Below, piece after piece: positions 6,124 through 23,647 of a stretch of 64,000 bases of DNA. The DNA is from an uncultured Chlorobiaceae bacterium (GTDB lineage Bacteria; Bacteroidota; Chlorobiia; Chlorobiales; Chlorobiaceae): positions 57,167 to 121,166 of the forward strand of contig CAIJVD010000028.1 in NCBI GenBank assembly GCA_903824045.1, given 5' to 3'. The position numbers and the translations under genes are program-made. Position 1 is the first letter of the stretch, and each line of letters opens with the position of its first letter. Under the pieces are notes generated by a model, which saw only the letters and a program-made list of their open reading frames with translations, was not told the DNA's origin and made no database searches.

Positions 6124-7278
6124 TCAGTTGGCAAATGTGATGTTCAAATTTCCCTCGATAAAATCAGCACCCTCGGTCTTCCGGCCAACAAGAACATTGG
6201 GCAGAATAATGCTTTTGCGGAAATTGTTGATATCGACAAGAAGCTCGTCACCCTTGATATTGACATTGAGCTTGGTAACCTCAACGTTCGGCAGATAGAG
6301 CTTAAGCACATACTTGCCGTTGACCTTCTCAAGGATTTGGGTCTTCTCATTGGTATAGAGAACCGCCGCGGGATTTTTGTCCTCAAACATCTCCTTGCTC
6401 AGCTCATAAAGGCGATCGGTATTGATAATCTCGGCCGTCGACTGTTTCACCCTGAAAATGGGCACCGGGTAGAAGCAGTTTTCAATAACCCTCAGATACT
6501 TGGTCTGGATATCGATGAGGCTCTGCAGGTAGGTGTCGTTTGAGCTCGTCGGAAGAATCTTGTTGACGACAGCCGCATCCAGCTTGTAGCCGAAAAGGTT
6601 GAGATAGGTCTGCACCCGCAGGGCTTCCTTTATCACCATGTTTTCGGGATTGAGCACAACTCGGAAGGTGGTGATAGACTTGTCCTGAAGCATTTGGTGA
6701 AGTTCCTTCATGTGCTCATTAACTTCCGGCATGAGCTTGAAGATGTTTTTCTTCGGCATGAATTTGCTCAGGAGCGGAGCCGCAAAGCCAATGGCCTTGG
6801 AGTGCCAGCCTCCGATTTTTTCCGAGTACCAGCCGTATGATTCCGGCATGCCGAGCAGACGCATGGTCTCTCCGGTCGGAGCTGCATCAACAACGACAAC
6901 ATCATAATTACCTGATTTTGCAGCCTTCCAGATATAGCGAAGGCTGATCATCTCCTCCATGCCAGGCATGATAGCCAGCTCCTCGGCCACAATCTCGTTG
7001 GCTCCGTCGTGCATCAGAATAGAGGAGAAATAGGAGTAGAGCTCGCTCCAGTTCTCCCTGATCTCCGCAAGCACATTCACCTCCATGGCAAAGAGATTCT
7101 TTTCAACCTCGACCGGAGTCGACGAAAGCTCCACACTGAGCGCATCGGCAAGACTGTGGGCAACATCGGTGCTCATGATCAGAACCCGCTGGCCTCTTCG
7201 GGCAATTGCCGTTGCCGTTGAGGCGGAAACAGTGGTTTTTCCGACCCCGCCTTTGCCCAGGTAAAGAATAATTCTCAT
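6124..7278 (-). CDS. ArsA/Get3-family ATPase with C-terminal HSP20-like (ArsA_HSP20-type) domain
   Basis: 384 aa; deviant Walker [23 protein letters not shown]-term [38 protein letters not shown]. Confidence 0.9.
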
Positions 7279-7320
7279 GGTGGTAATAAAGTGGACTTGC
7301 TGTTCTTGGTACGTCTGTTA

Positions 7321-8934
7321 CTATAAAACCTCTCCCTTCTTTTCCTCTCCCGCACCCTCGGCAGGAGCGCTCTTTTCACCCTCGATCTCCTCCGGCATAG
7401 TGAAACCCTCGAAAGCCGAAGCTATCTCTTCAGGGTCGGGCCATTCCGGTGAAGCGCTGCTTTCCTTCGCTGAAGCATCGGCCTTAACCTTTTCAGCGAT
7501 GATCGTGATTTTTTTCCGGGAACCCGAAGCTTCATCCTCACCCTCACCGGAAAGCGGCTTCGTTGCCGTTTCAGGAAAATCCGGTTCGGAGAGCGGCGTG
7601 TCCATGAGCATCATGTCCTTGACAATTGAAGGGATCTCGGCATCGTCAGCGGTGATTGAGATCTTCTTGCGACGCCCGACGAGCTCATCCTGGTGACCAT
7701 CTGAGGGTACGCTGCTTTTGGCAGATGCAGTTGAAACACTGTCGGCGATGCCTGCCGCCGCATCATGGCCGAAACAGTCCTCGGTAAGAGGCGAGTCGGC
7801 ATCACTGGTAATACGAATATTCTTCCTCTTGTAGGAGCTGTCATCGACGGCAAAGAAATCCCGTTCACTCTTGTTATTGGCGGGTGCTCCTTCGGCAGGA
7901 CTACCGGTTTTTTGTGCAGGATTTTGCGTTTTGCGCTTGGGTGGCGCGCTAAAACTTGAGGAGAGCTTGATAAGCTTTCCAACTGAACCGATCATGCCGT
8001 CATTCTGAACGGCAGTTTTGACGATATTCATCACGAACCGCTCGGCCTGGGGGTTTTCCGATATATTGGTCAATAGATCGTTCAGCGCGGTCAGCATGCC
8101 CGGAACGTGCCGCAGATCCTGCTTGACCTGGTCACGAAGCCGGAAAGGGGCATCGCCGATCAGATCCTTGATTGAGCCGGCAATGCCTTTCAGTGAGACC
8201 GGATCGCCTGACATAATCCCTTCAAGACCCCTCATCGCATCTGCCGGAGAGAACCCTCCCGACTGCTGCTCTCCGCCTGGCGACTCTGCGGGCGCATACC
8301 CTGTGTTCTGGTGTGGAATATCCGGGTTGGCATACCCTATAGCTGCCTTGTACTGCTCAAGCAGATCCTGCCCGTAGCCGATGCTGCTGTCGGCCTGAAC
8401 CGGACCGGAAGGGTCGAAATTGACACTCAGCGTACGCACAGGGCATGCCGAGCGCGCGGCATGAAGTACCGCAGCTGAGACATCGTCAGGCAGGGGTTGA
8501 CGGAAATTGGTGCCGAGATGCTCTTCGATAATCGACTCGATAACGGTATGAAGCTTGACGATCTGCTCCGCCTCGCGCCGTTCAACCATATCGAAAATCA
8601 CATAGACCGGCTCCTTGCCCTCCCTGCGTACCTTGAGGTTAAGGGTGGAAAAATCATGATCCTTGTTCCGGCTGCTCAGTGAAACGGACCCAAGCTCAAA
8701 GCGGTCGAGAAAATCTTTTGCGGAACCTCTGGCCCAGAGGTAGACCGCCTTGTCTGAATAGACGAGATAATCCTGAAACGCAATATTGCCGACCCGCTCC
8801 TGATGGGATTCATAGAAGACACCGTCAAAAAAAGCAACGGGATGCTCGCCGGCATTCATGAGACCCTTCTGAAAAAACTCAGCCACATCGTTCTGCTCAC
8901 TCTGAGCGGAAACATACAAAGATATATTAGCCAT
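7321..8934 (-). CDS. Uncharacterised protein in chlorosome locus; possible N-terminal PH-like domain, low-complexity C-terminus
   Basis: 537 aa ORF between an ArsA-type gene and csmA on the same strand; N-term NIAFQDYLVYSDKAVYLWARGSAKDFLDRFELGSVSLSSR... resembles bacterial PH (YokE-like) folds by eye. Confidence 0.75.
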   Translation of the reverse strand: MANISLYVSAQSEQNDVAEFFQKGLMNAGEHPVAFFDGVFYESHQERVGNIAFQDYLVYSDKAVYLWARGSAKDFLDRFELGSVSLSSRNKDHDFSTLNLKVRREGKEPVYVIFDMVERREAEQIVKLHTVIESIIEEHLGTNFRQPLPDDVSAAVLHAARSACPVRTLSVNFDPSGPVQADSSIGYGQDLLEQYKAAIGYANPDIPHQNTGYAPAESPGGEQQSGGFSPADAMRGLEGIMSGDPVSLKGIAGSIKDLIGDAPFRLRDQVKQDLRHVPGMLTALNDLLTNISENPQAERFVMNIVKTAVQNDGMIGSVGKLIKLSSSFSAPPKRKTQNPAQKTGSPAEGAPANNKSERDFFAVDDSSYKRKNIRITSDADSPLTEDCFGHDAAAGIADSVSTASAKSSVPSDGHQDELVGRRKKISITADDAEIPSIVKDMMLMDTPLSEPDFPETATKPLSGEGEDEASGSRKKITIIAEKVKADASAKESSASPEWPDPEEIASAFEGFTMPEEIEGEKSAPAEGAGEEKKGEVL

Positions 8935-9141
8935 TACCCTACCCGTTCACTTAGCACTTACTATTGAATTTGAACCGAAATCTATCAAAATTTTGGTAGA
9001 AAGAGAAATAACCTGATCGCTCGCAACCGGCTATTTTCAAGGCAGGAGGGCCTTGCCCAAAGTGGCGTTTATAAGGAAAAGGGGGGGGGCAATTCATCAA
9101 AGGGAAGGGGGACGGAAGATTATTTCGTCCGGTGCAGGGCA

Positions 9142-9178
9142 AAAAAAAGGCAGTGAAACATCTCTGGTCACTGCCTTG
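9142..9178 (-). terminator. Intrinsic terminator downstream of csmA
   Basis: Reverse strand AAGGCAGTGA-ccagagatgttt-CACTGCC followed by T8. Confidence 0.85.
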
Positions 9179-9200
9179 TCTACGATGCAGCTCTTGTCGC

Positions 9201-9443
9201 TTATTTGGCGAACTTTGAGTCAACTTCCTTTGAAGGAACAGCATAGCCTGTAGCTTCAGGAGAACCGCCACGAAGGCTAACGCCACTTCCTGCGCTGCCA
9301 TAAGCATTGCGATTGATTCTCATGGTACCTTTGCCCAGAGAGTCAAACAGCATCCCGACAGTCTCCCAGTGACCTTCAACCATCACTTCAAAAATGCGAC
9401 CGGCGGATGCCAGGATATCGGTAAATACGCCACCACCACTCAT
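9201..9443 (-). CDS. csmA: Chlorosome envelope/baseplate protein A (precursor)
   Basis: 80 aa [50 protein letters not shown]..., recognised CsmA sequence with C-terminal propeptide. Confidence 0.98.
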
Positions 9444-9587
9444 AACTCCTCCTTGGAATGTTTTATTGAAAAGCTTTCAGAAATTTTAGTCAGTATTCTG
9501 GTATCAATTTACAGTAATAAACAAAAAAACGCAAGAAAAAGATTCCCTCCCCCGGCGAGCCCGAAAGGACGGCGCTGGAGAGTCCTC

Positions 9588-10007
9588 TTACTTCTTTGGC
9601 TGAGGTTTCTGGAATGACCCGGAGAAGCTTTTCACTGCCTCGGAGGCGGAAACGCCAACATCGCCGACTGCCTTGGCCGCATTGCCTGTGACATTTTCAA
9701 CGGTGTCAACAGCACTGGAATAGAGCTGACCAGCTGTTCTCGATGCATCCTTGACGGTAATGGCCACGCGGTCAATAGTCTCGCCTACCACACCGCCGGT
9801 GTTGCCAAGAAGATTTCCGATACCCGATGCGTCGATAACTGCGCCGACCGTACCGGTTATTGTATCAAAAATGCCCCCTGCAAGATTAAGGCTTCCGACG
9901 ACAGCACTCTGGCCGGTCAGAAGAACGCTTTCGGCAACAAAGGTGAGGCGATCGGTAAAATCAAGTTCCTTGAACTCCTTGCGAGCTTTCTGGTACGATT
10001 CAGACAT
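9588..10007 (-). CDS. csmC: Chlorosome envelope protein C
   Basis: 139 aa; sequence type and position directly upstream of csmA match the csmCA arrangement of green sulfur bacteria. Confidence 0.9.
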
Positions 10008-10133
10008 GGTGTCCTCCTGTGGATGGTGAGGCGGCTCAAAGGCGGCCCCGATTGTGATATCGGCTTACGAGATTGTACTTGGATTCAAGTTAAACAAAAA
10101 AAAATCGCAAACCAATGCCCCTGCCCCGAAGGC

Positions 10134-11366
10134 CTACCCCCTGTGATTATTGGAGCTCCTGGTTTCGTTCTGCAGGCGGTCCTGCTCACGACTGTCAAGA
10201 TCAAACGGAATATGCAGCCACTTGTCCTTGAAGAAGGCATTGCCAGGCTCAAGGCCAGTCAGGCTTATCGGCAGCGTGATGATCTTGCGCTGATTGCCGA
10301 TCTGCACATAGAGCTCGTCGCCTGTAACCCAGACGTCGATATCAACCGGATTGGCAAACATGAGCTTCAGCTGCACCTCATAAATATCCTTGTTCCTGAC
10401 GAATTTGATCGGCGGCTCGTCATACATCAGGTCCGAAGGGTCGGTATCGCCGTACATGTCGTGGGCAAACTGCTCAAGAGCCTCAAGACCGACGATCTCC
10501 TGGTCATACATCTTGAGCTTCTTGACCGGCAGCGGTGCGAATCCCTCTTCGATCTCACCGAGATATTTCTGCTGGATACTCTTCCATTTTTCAAGGTATC
10601 CGCTGTCCTCATTAGTGTCGAGGAGCCTGTTGACCAGCACCATGTCCACCTTGAAGCCGTAGAGGTTCAGGTAGGTCAGGGCCCGCATGGTCTCCTTGAT
10701 CGACATCTTTTCGGCGTTCATGACGAGGCGTACCGTCGACTTGACGGTATCGGTAAGAATTTCGCGAATATCCTCAAGCTCGTCGAAAACCTGGTCTACA
10801 GACTCGACGGCATCTTCGGGAGGAATGAAGTATGCAATCTTGTCGGACATCTTCGAGAGCGGCTTGCTGAGCGGACGGATAATGTATTTGTTGACATTCT
10901 TGATCGCCTTCATTCCCCATGCGAGCGTATCGGGCAGAGAGAGGAGACGCAAGGTCTCGCCGGTCGGTGCAGTGTCGAGCACCAGAACGTCATAAAGGCC
11001 AGCGGTCTTGTAGCGTTTGATCCTCAAGAGGGAGAAGAGCTCCTCCATCCCGGGAAGAATAGTCATTTCATCGGCCATGACCCCCGAAACGCCCTGGGCC
11101 ATAAAAACCCTTGTATAGTATTTCTGTACCGACTGCCAGTTCTGCTTGAGATCGACATAGGGGTTGACCTCGATGGCATGAAGGTTCTCCCTGATCTTGG
11201 TTGGTTCAGCACCGAGCGGCAGATTGAAAGAATCCGAAAGACTGTGTGCCGGATCGGTCGAGAGGACAAGGGTTCTGTAGCCAAGCTCTGCCAGCCTGAC
11301 TGCGGTTGCCGCAGAGACACTGGTTTTGCCTACTCCGCCTTTTCCGGTGAATGTTAAAATGCGCAT
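10134..11366 (-). CDS. ArsA/Get3-family ATPase with C-terminal HSP20-like domain (second copy)
   Basis: 410 aa from [38 protein letters not shown]-term YEVQLKLMFANPVDIDVWVTGDELYVQIGNQRKIITLP. Confidence 0.9.
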   Translation of the reverse strand: MRILTFTGKGGVGKTSVSAATAVRLAELGYRTLVLSTDPAHSLSDSFNLPLGAEPTKIRENLHAIEVNPYVDLKQNWQSVQKYYTRVFMAQGVSGVMADEMTILPGMEELFSLLRIKRYKTAGLYDVLVLDTAPTGETLRLLSLPDTLAWGMKAIKNVNKYIIRPLSKPLSKMSDKIAYFIPPEDAVESVDQVFDELEDIREILTDTVKSTVRLVMNAEKMSIKETMRALTYLNLYGFKVDMVLVNRLLDTNEDSGYLEKWKSIQQKYLGEIEEGFAPLPVKKLKMYDQEIVGLEALEQFAHDMYGDTDPSDLMYDEPPIKFVRNKDIYEVQLKLMFANPVDIDVWVTGDELYVQIGNQRKIITLPISLTGLEPGNAFFKDKWLHIPFDLDSREQDRLQNETRSSNNHRG

Positions 11367-16784: not shown

Positions 16785-17063
16785 GGCGCCAAAGCTCTCT
16801 CCCCCAAACTATCCCCGGTAACCGCTGGGGATCTGGTTTCCCGGCACTTAACCCGAACGCCCTCACACTGATGTTTTACAGCAACTTTTTATTTTATTGT
16901 TTTTTTTTTAATAAATTGAGGACACGAATGCTGATAACGGATTGAAGCAGTGCTTCTTCCAGCGGTGATGATGATGATCTGTATTGATGTTTGAGGGATG
17001 CTGACGGTAACCGGTTTTTGCTTTTTTTTGTTCGTATCATTGCAACCAGACCCACACACAACC

Positions 17064-19688
17064 ATGAAAAAAACGAACAGTAGTGTCCGTTTTGTTCTAT
17101 CAGCAGTCTGCCTTTCGGCGGTGCTGGTACCACTCCCATCCTATGGAGCCGATACCGGCACCATAAAGGGCAAAATCGTTGACAAAGCTGATGGAGAAGG
17201 CATCTACGGCGCCTCCATAACCATTCCCGGCACCACCATCGGCACTGCCACCGACATGAACGGCAACTTCACGCTCTCCAACGTTCCTGCAAAACAGGAA
17301 AAGATCTCAGTCTCCATCGTCGGCTACGCTGCTGCAAGCCAGACCGTAACCGTCACCGCTGGTCAGACCTCAGTGGTCAACCTCAAGCTCGGCCAGACCA
17401 CCGTCATGGCTTCGGAAGTCATCGTCGGTGCTTCTCTCTACAAGCAGGATCGCTTTCAGGTTCCTGTGACCGTCAACGTTGTATCACGCGAGAGGATCAA
17501 GCAGGAGAGCAACCCGACGCTTGACAAGGTTATCGAGGATGTTCCCGGTGTTGTTGTCACCCGCGCAGGCGGTCAAACAACCGCAAACATCCAGATTCGC
17601 GGTTCAAACACCTATCAGGGTGGTGCCATCGGTACCCGCGTACAGGGTTTCTACGACGGATTTCCGCTCAACGCACCTGAGTCAGGCGAAATCGCATGGC
17701 CAGCCGTCAACATGAACGCCGCCGACAAGGTCGAGGTGCTCAAAGGCGCAGCAGCAACACTCTACGGCTCAGGAGCCATGGGTGGCGTGGTCAACGTCTA
17801 CGGCCATCTGCCTGAAAAACTCGAAGTGAAAGCCGGGGCAAGCCTTGGTTTCTATGATACCCCTCCCTCGACCGATCAGAGTGCTTACTGGAAGCGCCAC
17901 ATCACTCCATTCTTCTATAACACCTATGTCGGCGTCGGCAACAAGGTCGAGAAGCTGACATACAGCCTGATTTACACCAATAGCCATGACGACGGCTACC
18001 GCCAGAACGCCCAGAACACTCTGGATGATGTCAAGCTGAAAGCCCGCTACGATATCGACTCCAAGCAGTACATCCAGCTGAGCAGCTTCTACAACAAGTC
18101 CAACGGCGGCTATGCCTATTCGATGCCGTATGACTTCTATGCAGTACCGACTCCGACATTTACGCCTCACCCTGAGTACGCATATGACTCCTATGTCAAT
18201 GCTAAAGCATTTGCGAGTGTGTCCGCATTTTCTGACTACTTGACGGCCCATCCAGGAGGCACAATTTCCATTGGAGGAAGAAGTTCGACAATTCCCACTT
18301 TCCCATACATGCTGTTTATGGGCCCAGGCAATCCACTTAATGGGTTGAAATCCGCCGCACAATATGCAGCGATTGTTAATGGTTTTGGTACGGGTATTGC
18401 CGATTACAAGCTCTATGACGTCTATGGTGACGACACCATCCAGCGCAAGACCGGTCAGGTAGGCCTCAACTACGTGAACCTGCTGAGCGAGAACGTCAGC
18501 CTTGATACTCGCGTCTATCACACCTACAATGAGACACGCATTGAGTACAATCCAACGCTCGCTGACCAGACCTATGCTACCGGCAAGGTGCGTACTCCCG
18601 GTGAGTTCAACGAAACCTACTCGAACCGCAACGGTGTCGGCACAAAAATCGACTGGAGAGCCAACAAGAACAATCGCATTCTTGCGGGTGTTGACGGCAG
18701 CGTCACCGATTTCATGACATCGACCGTATCGGCTGAGATTCCGGTCAAAAACACGCTCAAACCGATTCAGGAGAAAAATGCCTCCGCATTCCTGCAGGAT
18801 GAGTGGACCTTGACCGACAAGCTGACCTCCCTCGTTTCGCTGCGCTATGACTGGAGCGGCGTTGACGCCAGTCAGGCTGAAACAACCGCCGGCACCTTTG
18901 TTGCGCTTCAGCACCAGTCGGTTGATGCACTGAGTCCTCGCGTGGCACTGAACTACAAGGCCGCCGACGATATGTCCCTGCGTGCTTCATGGGGCAAGAG
19001 CTTCCGCGCTCCAACCCTCTCCGAACGCTTCATCCGCGATGGCGGCATGTTCCAGGGAACACCCAATGAGGCTCTTGACAAGGAGACCATGACCGCTTAT
19101 GAACTCGGTATGTTCAAGCAGTTTGGTGACAAGGTATCGCTTGACATCGCAGGATTCCTGAGCGACTACGACAACCTTATCGAGTCTATCATCAACCTCG
19201 ACCAGACCTTCAAGTACAGGAACATCACCAAGGCCCGCATCTGGGGTGTTGAAACCGGCCTTAACTTCAGGCCGAACAGCGAATGGGCGTTTAATGCGGC
19301 ATACACCTACATGAATGCCAAAAACCGTTCATATGTTGCAGGACAGAGCTCAAATCAGGATCTGAACCCTGATCCGACATGGCTCCCTTACCGTCCCGAG
19401 CACACCGTTTCTGCAGGCGCTACATTCAAGCCGGACAACAAGCTCTCAGTGAACTTGAGTGGCCGTTATGTCGGTACCTACAAGTCGGTTAGCTCCTATC
19501 CTAACGCTACCCGCGCCAACTACCCTGGTGGCTTCATCGTACTCAACACAGGTGCGAAGTACCAGTTGGGCGAAGGCGCAGTGCTGAGCCTTCAGTGCAA
19601 GAACATCGGCAACGTGCAGTATGAAGAGGCCGAATGGTTCCGCGCTCCAGGACGCAGCTATGTTGCCGGTCTGGATTTCACCTTCTAA
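17064..19688 (+). CDS. TonB-dependent outer-membrane receptor with N-terminal carboxypeptidase-regulatory-like domain
   Basis: Signal peptide MKKTNSSVRFVLSAVCLSAVLVPLPSYGA; GTIKGKIVDKADGEGIYGASI; plug and barrel segments; C-terminal GLDFTF. Confidence 0.93.
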   Translation: MKKTNSSVRFVLSAVCLSAVLVPLPSYGADTGTIKGKIVDKADGEGIYGASITIPGTTIGTATDMNGNFTLSNVPAKQEKISVSIVGYAAASQTVTVTAGQTSVVNLKLGQTTVMASEVIVGASLYKQDRFQVPVTVNVVSRERIKQESNPTLDKVIEDVPGVVVTRAGGQTTANIQIRGSNTYQGGAIGTRVQGFYDGFPLNAPESGEIAWPAVNMNAADKVEVLKGAAATLYGSGAMGGVVNVYGHLPEKLEVKAGASLGFYDTPPSTDQSAYWKRHITPFFYNTYVGVGNKVEKLTYSLIYTNSHDDGYRQNAQNTLDDVKLKARYDIDSKQYIQLSSFYNKSNGGYAYSMPYDFYAVPTPTFTPHPEYAYDSYVNAKAFASVSAFSDYLTAHPGGTISIGGRSSTIPTFPYMLFMGPGNPLNGLKSAAQYAAIVNGFGTGIADYKLYDVYGDDTIQRKTGQVGLNYVNLLSENVSLDTRVYHTYNETRIEYNPTLADQTYATGKVRTPGEFNETYSNRNGVGTKIDWRANKNNRILAGVDGSVTDFMTSTVSAEIPVKNTLKPIQEKNASAFLQDEWTLTDKLTSLVSLRYDWSGVDASQAETTAGTFVALQHQSVDALSPRVALNYKAADDMSLRASWGKSFRAPTLSERFIRDGGMFQGTPNEALDKETMTAYELGMFKQFGDKVSLDIAGFLSDYDNLIESIINLDQTFKYRNITKARIWGVETGLNFRPNSEWAFNAAYTYMNAKNRSYVAGQSSNQDLNPDPTWLPYRPEHTVSAGATFKPDNKLSVNLSGRYVGTYKSVSSYPNATRANYPGGFIVLNTGAKYQLGEGAVLSLQCKNIGNVQYEEAEWFRAPGRSYVAGLDFTF

Positions 19689-19843: not shown

Positions 19844-22800
19844 ATGCACGATAAAATCAGAATCGCCGCAGTTGTCGGGATGGAACAATGCAACCAGCGG
19901 GTATGGCGTGAGGTGACCGAAAAGATAGGCGCACATGCCGAATTGACCCAATGGACCGACCAGGATCTTGAGCACCAGAATCCGGAAGCGGCTGAAGCCA
20001 TCCGGAATGCTGACTGTGTTTTCACCACGCTGATTCAGTTCAAGGTACAGGCTGACTGGCTGCAGGAACAGCTCGACAAGTCGAAGGTTCAGGTGGTCTT
20101 CGCTTACGAGTCGATGCCTGAGGTGATGCAGATGACGAAGGTAGGCAGCTACGTGGTATCGGGTGACGGGGGCGGCATGCCGGATATTGTCAAGAAGGTA
20201 GCAAAGATGCTGGTGAAGGGACGTGACGAGGATGCCCTTTACGGATACATGAAACTGCTGAAGATCATGCGGACCATGCTGCCGCTGATCCCCAAAAAGG
20301 CAAAGGATTTCAAGAACTGGATGCAGGTTTACACCTACTGGATGCATCCAACTGCCGACAACCTCGCCTCGATGTTCAACTACATCATGGCCGAGTACTT
20401 TGAGGTCGCCATCAAGGTCGCAAAGGTGGAGGAGGTTCCCACCATGGGTTTCTACCATCCCGATGCGCCCGACTACCTTAAAGATCTCCACCACTACGAA
20501 AAATGGCTGCACAAGCGGGATAAAGGCTCTGCCTCCAGACGCAATATAGGAGTGCTCTTCTTCCGCAAGCACCTCCTGCAGGAGAAGGAGTATATCGACA
20601 ACACCATCCGCGCCATCGAAGCGAAGGGTCTCAACCCCCTGCCGGTGTTTGTGATGGGCGTTGAGGGTCACGTTGCCTCCAGAGAGTGGTTTACCCACGC
20701 AAATATCGACATGCTGGTCAACATGATGGGCTTCGGCTTTGTTGGCGGGCCGGCGGGCGCAACCACACCGGGAGCATCTTCGGCCGCTCGCGACGAGATT
20801 CTTGGCAAAATCAACGCACCCTACGTCGTCTCCCAGCCGCTCTTCATACAGGATTTCGCCTCATGGAAGTCGCAGGGCGTCGTGCCGTTGCAGTCGGCCA
20901 TGACCTACTCACTGCCCGAGATGGACGGCGCTGTCTGCCCGGTCGTGCTCGGTGCTATCAAGGAGGGTCGCCTGCAGACCGTGCCTGACCGCCTCGAACG
21001 ACTTTCAGGCCTTGCAAAGAAGTTCTCCGACCTGCGCCACACGCCAAACCGCGAGAAGAAGATCGCTTTCGTGGTCTACGACTATCCGCCGGGTATGGGC
21101 AAAAAGGCAAGTGCCGCCCTGCTCGATGTGCCGAAAAGCCTCTACAACTTCCTCCTCTCGCTGAGTGCCGACGGCTACAATGTCGGTGAACTGCCGGAAT
21201 CGGCGGAGGCACTGCTTGCCATGCTCGATCGCGCTACCGATTTTGAGATTCAGGCTCACGAGCAGGATTGCTTTGCGATCGACCGCGAGGTATACAACCG
21301 CATCACTACCGACCGCGAGCGCGAGCGCATCGAAGGCCGCTGGAGCGGATTCCCCGGCGATATCGCCCCCGTCGGCCCCGACAGGCTTTTTGTCGGCGGT
21401 ATCACCCTCGGAAACATCTTCATCGGCGTCCAGCCGCGCCTCGGCGTACAGGGCGACCCGATGCGACTGCTCTTCGACAAGGAGAACACGCCGCACCATC
21501 AGTATATCTCCTTCTACCGCTGGATCAGCCGCGAGTTCGGGGCAAACGCCCTTGTCCACGTCGGCATGCACGGCACGGCAGAGTGGATGCCCGGCCTCCA
21601 GCTTGGCGTTACCGGCGACTGCTGGTCGGACGCGCTGCTCGGCGAGGTTCCCCACTTCTACATCTACCCGGTCAACAACCCGAGCGAGGCGAACATTGCC
21701 AAACGCCGCGGCTACGCCACCATGATTTCGCACAACATCCCTCCGCTTGCACGTGCCGGGCTCTACAAGGAGCTCCCTGCATTCAAGGAGATGCTCAGCG
21801 ACTACCGCGAGCGCGGTCTGGAGAAGATTGTCGACGTCGAGACCGAAGAGATCATCATCCAGAAGGCGCAGCAGCTCAACCTGACCGATGACTGCCCCCG
21901 CGTGAAGGATGAGTCGTTCCAAAACTATATCAGCAGGCTCTACACCTACATGATGGAGCTTGAAGGCCGCCTGATATCCAACTCGCTGCACGTTTTCGGC
22001 GAAACCCCGAAACTCGATTCGCAGGTTACCACCATTACGGAGTACCTGAAGGTCCGCGGCAATGAGAAATCGCTCCCATCCATCATCCTGCAGGCCATCG
22101 GCGAAAGCCGTACCTACGGCGACTACGCTGCGCTTGCCACACGCGCCCGCCAGGGTGAACCGCTGGCACTGAAGATGCGTGAAACGGTGGATGAGCATAC
22201 CCGGACGTTTATCGATCAGACCGTGTTTGGGCAGAACGACCCGAAATCGGTGCTCGACTCGCTGACCGGCGGTGCCAGGATTACGCAGGAGATGGCCGAG
22301 GCAATCAACACTTCAATCCAGGAGGGTCTTGCCCTGAAGCGCGCATTGCAGGACAACGGCATCGAGATGAAGAACTTCCTTCGCGCACTGTCGGGAGAGT
22401 ACATCCCCTCGGGAGCCGGCGGCGACTTGGTGCGCGACGGCGCAGGCATTCTGCCGACCGGGCGCAACATCCACGCCATCGACCCCTGGCGCATTCCGTC
22501 GGAACTGGCCTTCAAGCGCGGCAAGCAGATTGCCGACTCCATTCTCAAGCGACACATCGAAGAGAACAACGGAGAGTACCCTGAGACTATCGCACAGGTG
22601 CTCTGGGGCCTCGATACCATCAAGAGCAAGGGTGAAGCCGTTGCGGTCATCATTCACCTCATGGGCGCCGAACCAGCCTACGACGCGCAGGGCAAAATCA
22701 GCCACTACCGTCTTGTGCCGCTCGAAAAGCTCGGCCGACCGAGAATCGACGTGCTGATCCAGATCAGCTCCATTTTCCGCGACACCTTTGGCGTACTGGT

Positions 22801-23647
22801 CGACCATCTCGACAAGCTGGTGAAGGATGCAGCGAAAGCATTCGAGCCGCACGAGATGAACCATATCAAAAAGCATGTTGACGCCGCACTGAAGGATGGC
22901 AAGGATTTCGAAAGCGCCACCTCCCGCCTCTTCACACAGGCCCCCGGAGCCTACGGATCGCAGGTCGAGGAGCTGGTTGAGGATTCGGCATGGGAGTCGG
23001 AAGAGGATCTCGACAACATGTTCGTCAAGCGCACCGGATTTGCCTACGGCGGAAACCGCTACGGCGACCAGCAGAGTGACATTCTCAACAACCTTCTCAG
23101 CACAGTAGACCGTGTCGTTCAGCAGGTAGACTCCGCCGAGTTCGGCATCTCCGATATCGACCGCTACTTCTCCTCATCGGGAGCCCTCCAGCTCTCCGCA
23201 CGCCGCCGCAACCCCAAGGGCGACAACGTGAAGCTCAACTATGTCGAGACCTTTACGGCCGACGTCAAGATTGATGATGCCGACAAGGCGCTGAAGGTCG
23301 AGTTCCGCACCAAGCTGCTCAATCCAAAGTGGTTCGAGACCATGCTCGACCAGGGGCATAGCGGAGCCGCGGAAATCAGCAACCGCTTCACCTACATGCT
23401 TGGATGGGACGCTGTCACCAAAGGCGTGGACGACTGGGTCTACAAAGAGGCCGCCGAAACCTATGCGATGGATCCGAAGATGCGTGACCGGCTGATGAAG
23501 ATCAACCCGAAAGCCTTCAAGAACATCGTCGGCCGCATGCTCGAAGCCAGCGGACGCGGCATGTGGAACGCAGATCCGGATATGATCGAAAAGCTCCAGG
23601 AAATCTACTCCGACCTCGAAGACCGCCTTGAGGGGATCGAAGTGTAG
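19844..23647 (+). CDS. bchS: Magnesium chelatase H-subunit paralog (BchH/BchS/BchT family)
   Basis: 1267 aa CobN/BchH family (HVGMHGTAEWMPGLQLG, YPVNNPSEANIAKRRGYATMISH). bchS label is from tandem position upstream of bchH-bchM-bchE, less certain than the family. Confidence 0.9.
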   Translation: MHDKIRIAAVVGMEQCNQRVWREVTEKIGAHAELTQWTDQDLEHQNPEAAEAIRNADCVFTTLIQFKVQADWLQEQLDKSKVQVVFAYESMPEVMQMTKVGSYVVSGDGGGMPDIVKKVAKMLVKGRDEDALYGYMKLLKIMRTMLPLIPKKAKDFKNWMQVYTYWMHPTADNLASMFNYIMAEYFEVAIKVAKVEEVPTMGFYHPDAPDYLKDLHHYEKWLHKRDKGSASRRNIGVLFFRKHLLQEKEYIDNTIRAIEAKGLNPLPVFVMGVEGHVASREWFTHANIDMLVNMMGFGFVGGPAGATTPGASSAARDEILGKINAPYVVSQPLFIQDFASWKSQGVVPLQSAMTYSLPEMDGAVCPVVLGAIKEGRLQTVPDRLERLSGLAKKFSDLRHTPNREKKIAFVVYDYPPGMGKKASAALLDVPKSLYNFLLSLSADGYNVGELPESAEALLAMLDRATDFEIQAHEQDCFAIDREVYNRITTDRERERIEGRWSGFPGDIAPVGPDRLFVGGITLGNIFIGVQPRLGVQGDPMRLLFDKENTPHHQYISFYRWISREFGANALVHVGMHGTAEWMPGLQLGVTGDCWSDALLGEVPHFYIYPVNNPSEANIAKRRGYATMISHNIPPLARAGLYKELPAFKEMLSDYRERGLEKIVDVETEEIIIQKAQQLNLTDDCPRVKDESFQNYISRLYTYMMELEGRLISNSLHVFGETPKLDSQVTTITEYLKVRGNEKSLPSIILQAIGESRTYGDYAALATRARQGEPLALKMRETVDEHTRTFIDQTVFGQNDPKSVLDSLTGGARITQEMAEAINTSIQEGLALKRALQDNGIEMKNFLRALSGEYIPSGAGGDLVRDGAGILPTGRNIHAIDPWRIPSELAFKRGKQIADSILKRHIEENNGEYPETIAQVLWGLDTIKSKGEAVAVIIHLMGAEPAYDAQGKISHYRLVPLEKLGRPRIDVLIQISSIFRDTFGVLVDHLDKLVKDAAKAFEPHEMNHIKKHVDAALKDGKDFESATSRLFTQAPGAYGSQVEELVEDSAWESEEDLDNMFVKRTGFAYGGNRYGDQQSDILNNLLSTVDRVVQQVDSAEFGISDIDRYFSSSGALQLSARRRNPKGDNVKLNYVETFTADVKIDDADKALKVEFRTKLLNPKWFETMLDQGHSGAAEISNRFTYMLGWDAVTKGVDDWVYKEAAETYAMDPKMRDRLMKINPKAFKNIVGRMLEASGRGMWNADPDMIEKLQEIYSDLEDRLEGIEV

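Follow-up and report, generated by a model that had tools for sequence, protein, structure and literature searches.

The window analysed here, a 64,000-nucleotide stretch of DNA from an uncultured Chlorobiaceae bacterium (GenBank assembly GCA_903824045.1, contig CAIJVD010000028.1, positions 57,167 to 121,166), carries on its minus strand a block of five genes in which csmA and csmC, encoding a baseplate and an envelope protein of the chlorosome, lie among two Get3d-type ATPases (AT1 and AT2) and a 537-amino-acid (aa) protein, here called U. In the order of transcription the block reads AT1-csmC-csmA-U-AT2, with successive gaps of 126, 144, 266, and 42 bp. A first-pass annotation had placed these genes on one strand and described the motifs and cysteine counts of both ATPases; coordinates, motifs, and counts were all confirmed. 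The parts of the block, in window coordinates, are as follows.

10134-11366, minus strand: AT1, Get3d-type ATPase (ArsA_ATPase plus C-terminal alpha-crystallin/ArsA_HSP20 domain), 410 aa, no Cys
11319-11345, minus strand: P-loop of AT1, GKGGVGKTS
10941-10976, minus strand: switch II of AT1, DTAPTGETLRLL
10203-10388, minus strand: alpha-crystallin (ArsA_HSP20) domain of AT1, residues 327-388
9588-10007, minus strand: csmC, chlorosome envelope protein C (PF11098, E 8.9e-63)
9201-9443, minus strand: csmA, chlorosome baseplate protein, 80-aa precursor (PF02043, E 3.6e-31)
9204-9230, minus strand: conserved C-terminal tail of pre-CsmA with the signature K-x-[IV]-x-x-[KR]-F
7321-8934, minus strand: U, 537 aa, predicted PH-like N-terminus and long tail with I-x-I/V motifs
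8515-8934, minus strand: predicted PH-like N-terminal domain of U, residues ~1-140
7807-7827, minus strand: U tail motif 1, RKNIRIT
7651-7671, minus strand: U tail motif 2, RKKISIT
7498-7518, minus strand: U tail motif 3, RKKITII
6124-7278, minus strand: AT2, second Get3d-type ATPase, 384 aa, one Cys (Cys268 in ENCFYP, 6466-6483)
6133-6321, minus strand: alpha-crystallin (ArsA_HSP20) domain of AT2, residues 320-382

Among 148 Bacteroidota genomes, csmA was found in 37, every one of them Chlorobia, and csmC in 36, covering all three sampled Chlorobia families; the single miss (G056) is not a real absence, since AT1 there runs off the contig end. The order AT1-csmC-csmA-U-AT2 was constant in the fetched loci of the three families wherever the contig permitted, and the block was complete in 47 of the 51 named Chlorobi csmA loci, the remaining four lacking genes at one end, which we read as contig truncation. 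The flanks loosen across Chlorobia while the five-gene block stays. In Chlorobiaceae, the block lies between nadC/folB/folK and pyrK-like/ssb/holA; at one locus of a second family (L079), nadC/folB/folK still adjoin the block and the pyrK-like gene is farther away, at another (L080) the pyrK-like gene alone is kept, and in the third family neither gene set turned up around the block. A contig assigned to a Latescibacterota metagenome-assembled genome (L162) also holds Chlorobi-like AT1, csmC, and csmA, its AT1 being 92% identical to that of the window; this contig is probably misbinned.

The neighbourhood recurs in a second phylum, Chloroflexota. A scan with a Chloroflexus CsmA sequence, borne out by 100% matches to Chloroflexus records, yielded 29 Chloroflexales loci. 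At all 29, csmA is immediately preceded on its own strand by the gene of an AT1-type ATPase (median gap 114 bp), with homologues of U and a second ATPase following csmA. For instance, locus L131 reads ATPase-csmA-U1-U2-second ATPase-third ATPase. This third ArsA-family protein (L131:14132-15247, with equivalents in L128-L156) measures ~366-388 aa and combines a degenerate P-loop with an ArsA_HSP20 domain. In a sample of 81 Chloroflexia genomes, csmA was present in 20, each with the upstream ATPase, and two of divergent csmA (G156 and G165) kept ATPase-csmA-U-U; in the former, a third match to U lies at a site apart from csmA (G156:C2:1569715-1570272). Because the order is fixed in three Chlorobia families and ATPase-csmA-U recurs in Chloroflexota, the arrangement is not due to chance, and the random placement relative to csm genes that the first-pass annotation had named as the outcome speaking against its proposal is not what we found.

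U, which had been left as an unknown, is as tightly tied to csmA as the ATPases are, and no gene tested follows csmA more closely. The window protein matched no family in Pfam or NCBIfam. A profile of Chlorobi U recovered Chloroflexales U2 in 27 of 27 cases (E 6e-20 to 5e-13) and U1 somewhat more weakly, and an hhalign comparison of Chlorobi U with U2 gave 98% over 289 columns. By profile search, U was present in 35 of 37 csmA-bearing Chlorobia and in none of 111 csmA-less Bacteroidota (Fisher p 6e-32), as well as in 20 of 20 csmA-bearing and none of 61 csmA-less Chloroflexia (Fisher p 2e-19), both tests ignoring relatedness; G056 and G067, which account for the two misses, have contigs broken at this point. 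Pooling both samples gives 55 of 57 genomes with csmA and 0 of 172 without, as seen with a profile built from csmA-linked U proteins, which a very distant homologue elsewhere could escape. Furthermore, U occurred in 14 of 251 Chloroflexota genomes, and all 14 carry csmA. In the samples searched, U thus marks csmA-bearing genomes as sharply as csmA itself. Equal conservation in chlorosome-less lineages, the other outcome held against the original proposal, was likewise not observed, as both U and the AT1 clade described below were absent from the sampled chlorosome-less relatives.

Both ATPases are Get3d-like. They share a deviant (intradimeric) Walker A GKGGVGKT, a C-terminal alpha-crystallin domain above the PF17886 cut-off, and the lack of CXXC (AT1, PF02374 E 5.8e-117 and PF17886 E 1.3e-19; AT2, E 3.8e-83 and 1.2e-18, respectively). 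The structure model of AT1 (mean predicted local distance difference test, pLDDT, 82.8) matches Get3 (3zq6, E 1e-25) and also NosGet3d (8egk), the latter along almost the entire model, 398 columns. As in NosGet3d (All4481) and Arabidopsis Get3d, a single Get3 domain is followed by the alpha-crystallin domain and CXXC is missing, whereas AT1 and AT2 differ in that switch I and switch II are both retained in full and that csmA and U are encoded beside them. Fold and motifs are also those of Get3/TRC40, with TIGR00345 above cut-off, but the CXXC zinc site of Get3/TRC40 proper is absent and the alpha-crystallin domain is added. Green sulfur and green nonsulfur homologues have already been counted as Get3d (PMC10248533), and proteins of Chlorobium, Chloroherpeton, Chloroflexus, and Chloracidobacterium in Clusters 8 and 11 of an earlier survey of ArsA homologues (PMC2963123) appear to be these ATPase families; neither paper mentions chlorosomes in its main text.

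The genome of the window contains seven ArsA-family loci, namely AT1, AT2, three more ArsA-type copies (395-433 aa; contigs C31, C26, and C23), one of gas-vesicle type (C6:38067), and a two-domain ArsA (C19:4532). In two trees, Chlorobi AT1 formed one clade (support 98/96) with the Chloroflexales csmA-upstream ATPases, the G156 and G165 copies, and the Chlorobi paralogues on C26 and C31; this clade held no row from a csmA-less genome, an exclusivity limited to the nine such rows in the careful tree. A second clade (100/100) comprised a Chlorobi copy beside fabI, the second ATPase of Chloroflexales, and further copies from G156 and G165. It seems to correspond to Cluster 11 of PMC2963123, where a Chloracidobacterium protein is listed as well. 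AT2 belongs to neither, grouping with general Get3d-like ATPases of csmA-less Chloroflexia and three csmA-less Bacteroidota. Judged by these placements, AT1 and AT2 are not a symmetrical pair, and we reject a fixed AT1-AT2 heterodimer as a conserved feature: the idea of an ATPase pair, perhaps a heterodimer, raised in the first-pass annotation, does not fit one partner in a chlorosome-lineage clade and the other among general Get3d-like proteins, nor a Chloroflexales second ATPase of yet another subfamily. In the genome of the window, the Cluster 11-like copy (G000:C23:149013-149909, L109) lies upstream of a fabI-like gene, while its Chloroflexales relatives lie inside the csmA block. Extra AT1-scoring copies outside the csmA block, some beside extra csmA-like matches, occur in several Chlorobium genomes (G094:C115, G114:C3, G071:C20, G090:C46, G141:C42). 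In some Chlorobiaceae (L088-L091, from G102, G063, G117, and G145), another ArsA paralogue with an alpha-crystallin domain is encoded within a few kb of csmE; this proximity is not counted as a second linkage, since in L088 and L090 the two genes are convergent, ~3.6 kb apart, and separated by unrelated genes.

What U might contribute is suggested by its two halves. In an AlphaFold2 (AF2) model of its N-terminal 345 aa, residues 1-172 form a PH-like sandwich of good confidence and the rest is of low confidence. The top Foldseek matches of the N-terminus are PH-like, with a weak best E of 2.7e-4, and Pfam bPH_3 reached E 0.0016 in the best of 29 U members, the window U giving no match. The tail, putatively disordered as judged from low pLDDT and composition, is rich in basic I-x-I/V motifs: 40, 50, and 87 were observed in U tails against shuffled means of 5.2, 3.6, and 8.6, counts that are descriptive rather than proof because the motif definition was written after viewing the sequences and these are related to one another. 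In the N-terminal control the motif stood at chance level in Chlorobi U and U1 and was slightly raised in U2 (26 vs 18); in Chlorobi U of the second and third families it sits at or near the C-terminus. Repeated I-x-I/V motifs in such a tail are, by their sequence, of the ligand type for alpha-crystallin grooves: in BAG3 and other partner proteins, such motifs bind alpha-crystallin domains at the beta4/beta8 groove (PMC8047445). U resembles BAG3-type scaffolds in this repetition but differs in its PH-like domain and basic flanks, and its binding is hypothetical.

A further conserved element lies in CsmA. The signature K-x-[IV]-x-x-[KR]-F stood at the C-terminal end of CsmA/CsmE in 105 of 105 real sequences, with D permitted for K at one position; eight further open reading frames caught by the loose tail pattern were excluded by inspection as non-CsmA. 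The linker preceding the tail is not conserved across lineages. The C-terminal end of pre-CsmA is removed in mature CsmA, and conservation of a tail absent from the mature protein suggests that it is recognised during biogenesis.

The block is a conserved chlorosome-linked module, and a role in chlorosome assembly is very likely. That CsmA is the client seems probable, and slightly less firmly we lean towards a module dedicated to chlorosome biogenesis, with U tethering the Get3d-type ATPases that would handle CsmA. The biochemical picture borrows from the binding of a tail-anchored protein by Get3d in vitro (PMC10248533) and from the occupation of alpha-crystallin grooves by I-x-I/V motifs (PMC8047445). 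AT1, together with AT2 in Chlorobia or with a Get3d-type ATPase of another subfamily in Chloroflexales, would act as an ATP-driven holdase or targeting factor, taking up newly made CsmA, keeping this amphipathic protein soluble, and handing it over to the growing chlorosome baseplate or envelope. U would serve as the scaffold, its PH-like domain docking at the membrane or nascent chlorosome and the basic motifs of its tail filling the alpha-crystallin grooves and thereby tethering the ATPases, a step that we put forward with some reserve. More tentative still, the tail of pre-CsmA could be a handle read by this machinery and lost upon installation of CsmA. The full combination, namely an unrecognised machinery shared by two phyla in which the I-x-I/V motifs of PH-like U hold a Get3d-type ATPase by its alpha-crystallin domain and this ATPase reads a conserved C-terminal tag of pre-CsmA to load the baseplate, is rather unlikely to hold in every part. 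A parallel is offered by the gas-vesicle ArsA homologues, ArsA-family ATPases encoded in a cluster that builds a cell structure (PMC2963123); these form a separate, distant clade on our tree and have no csm link.

Several points weigh against the assembly reading. For AT1, AT2, and U, our literature search turned up neither biochemical results nor mutants. The PH-fold matches of U are weak, the motif counts were made on sequences that share ancestry, for which the shuffles make no correction, and the AT1 model deviates from Get3 structures by a root-mean-square deviation of 5-7 A. The alpha-crystallin domain of AT2 is not acidic, which weakens a simple charge match to the basic U motifs, and in Get3d this domain packs on the Get3 dimer (PMC10248533), so the groove may not be free. 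Moreover, the five genes may not form one operon, given that csmCA is a transcription unit by itself, with mono- and dicistronic mRNA (PMC12214013); in a Chlorobium, csmA is essential and csmC dispensable (same source). A promoter scan returned predicted promoters at chance level, and a terminator scan 9 predictions against 5.8 +/- 2.9 expected.

Among other explanations, the one that survives best, if still unlikely, is that the ATPases work in the manner of Get3 to target other proteins of the photosynthetic apparatus, hydrophobic or membrane-bound, with U as membrane docking partner and csmA adjacent through joint production instead of as client. The protein bound by Get3d is tail-anchored (PMC10248533), whereas CsmA is not, and the same-clade copies on C26 and C31 lie away from csm genes, but it is the position upstream of csmA that is kept in two phyla, while those relative to other photosynthesis genes are not. 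In addition, U tracks the presence of csmA, and the csmA-less relatives, which among Chloroflexia presumably include Roseiflexus-type phototrophs, have no U. Less probable is a module that positions or partitions chlorosomes, where deviant-Walker ATPases would act as ParA/MinD-type positioners and U as the adaptor between ATPase and chlorosome, comparable to McdA-McdB for carboxysomes. An ATPase, an adaptor with a long low-complexity tail, and an envelope protein are the plan of known positioning systems; the gene set fits this plan, the ATPases belong to the same SIMIBI class, and a PH-like domain suits a surface adaptor, yet AT1 and AT2 carry Get3-type motifs and an alpha-crystallin domain, and the best structure matches are Get3 and Get3d, not ParA or MinD. 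We regard as improbable that csmA, the ATPases, and U are neighbours through descent or transfer alone, as a photosynthesis island without joint function: transfer of chlorosome genes from one phylum to another has been proposed (PMC3150298), but the Chlorobia block stays intact while its flanks change, and no copy of U occurred in sampled csmA-less genomes, a pattern not predicted by neutral linkage over such divergence. Finally, extrusion of arsenite or another anion, suggested by the Pfam name and by six ArsA homologues historically annotated in Chlorobium tepidum (PMC11269200, in a passage citing Eisen 2002), deserves hardly any credence, as the arsenite pump has two ATPase halves and arsenite-site cysteines whereas AT1 and AT2 each have one PF02374 stretch with 0 and 1 Cys and none at such a site, score 87.6 and 121 bits against an NCBIfam ArsA cut-off of 650, and coexist with the separate two-domain ArsA. 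Of the original proposal that the ATPases handle chlorosome proteins rather than arsenite, the linkage to csm genes and the case against arsenite stand, but the two ATPases are not an equivalent pair.

For chlorosome assembly, budding and aggregation models are under discussion (PMC9316378), and according to recent papers CsmA is the only chlorosome protein common to the phyla (PMC9316378), the others being poorly conserved (PMC10972752). The AT1-type ATPase and U are two further families that accompany csmA in Chlorobia and Chloroflexota, at the gene level and with no residence in the chlorosome implied, and both are candidate chlorosome assembly factors. This result suggests that chlorosomes spread together with their own assembly machinery. 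Among the open-access papers searched, none joined chlorosomes and Get3, and in two that name both chlorosomes and ArsA the ArsA passages contain no discussion of csmA-ArsA linkage; subscription reviews may have noted it.

Elsewhere in the window, a gene resembling those of TonB-dependent receptors (16998-19688) is closely followed by a long open reading frame (19844-23647) that, judged by eye, resembles a BchH-type magnesium chelatase subunit.

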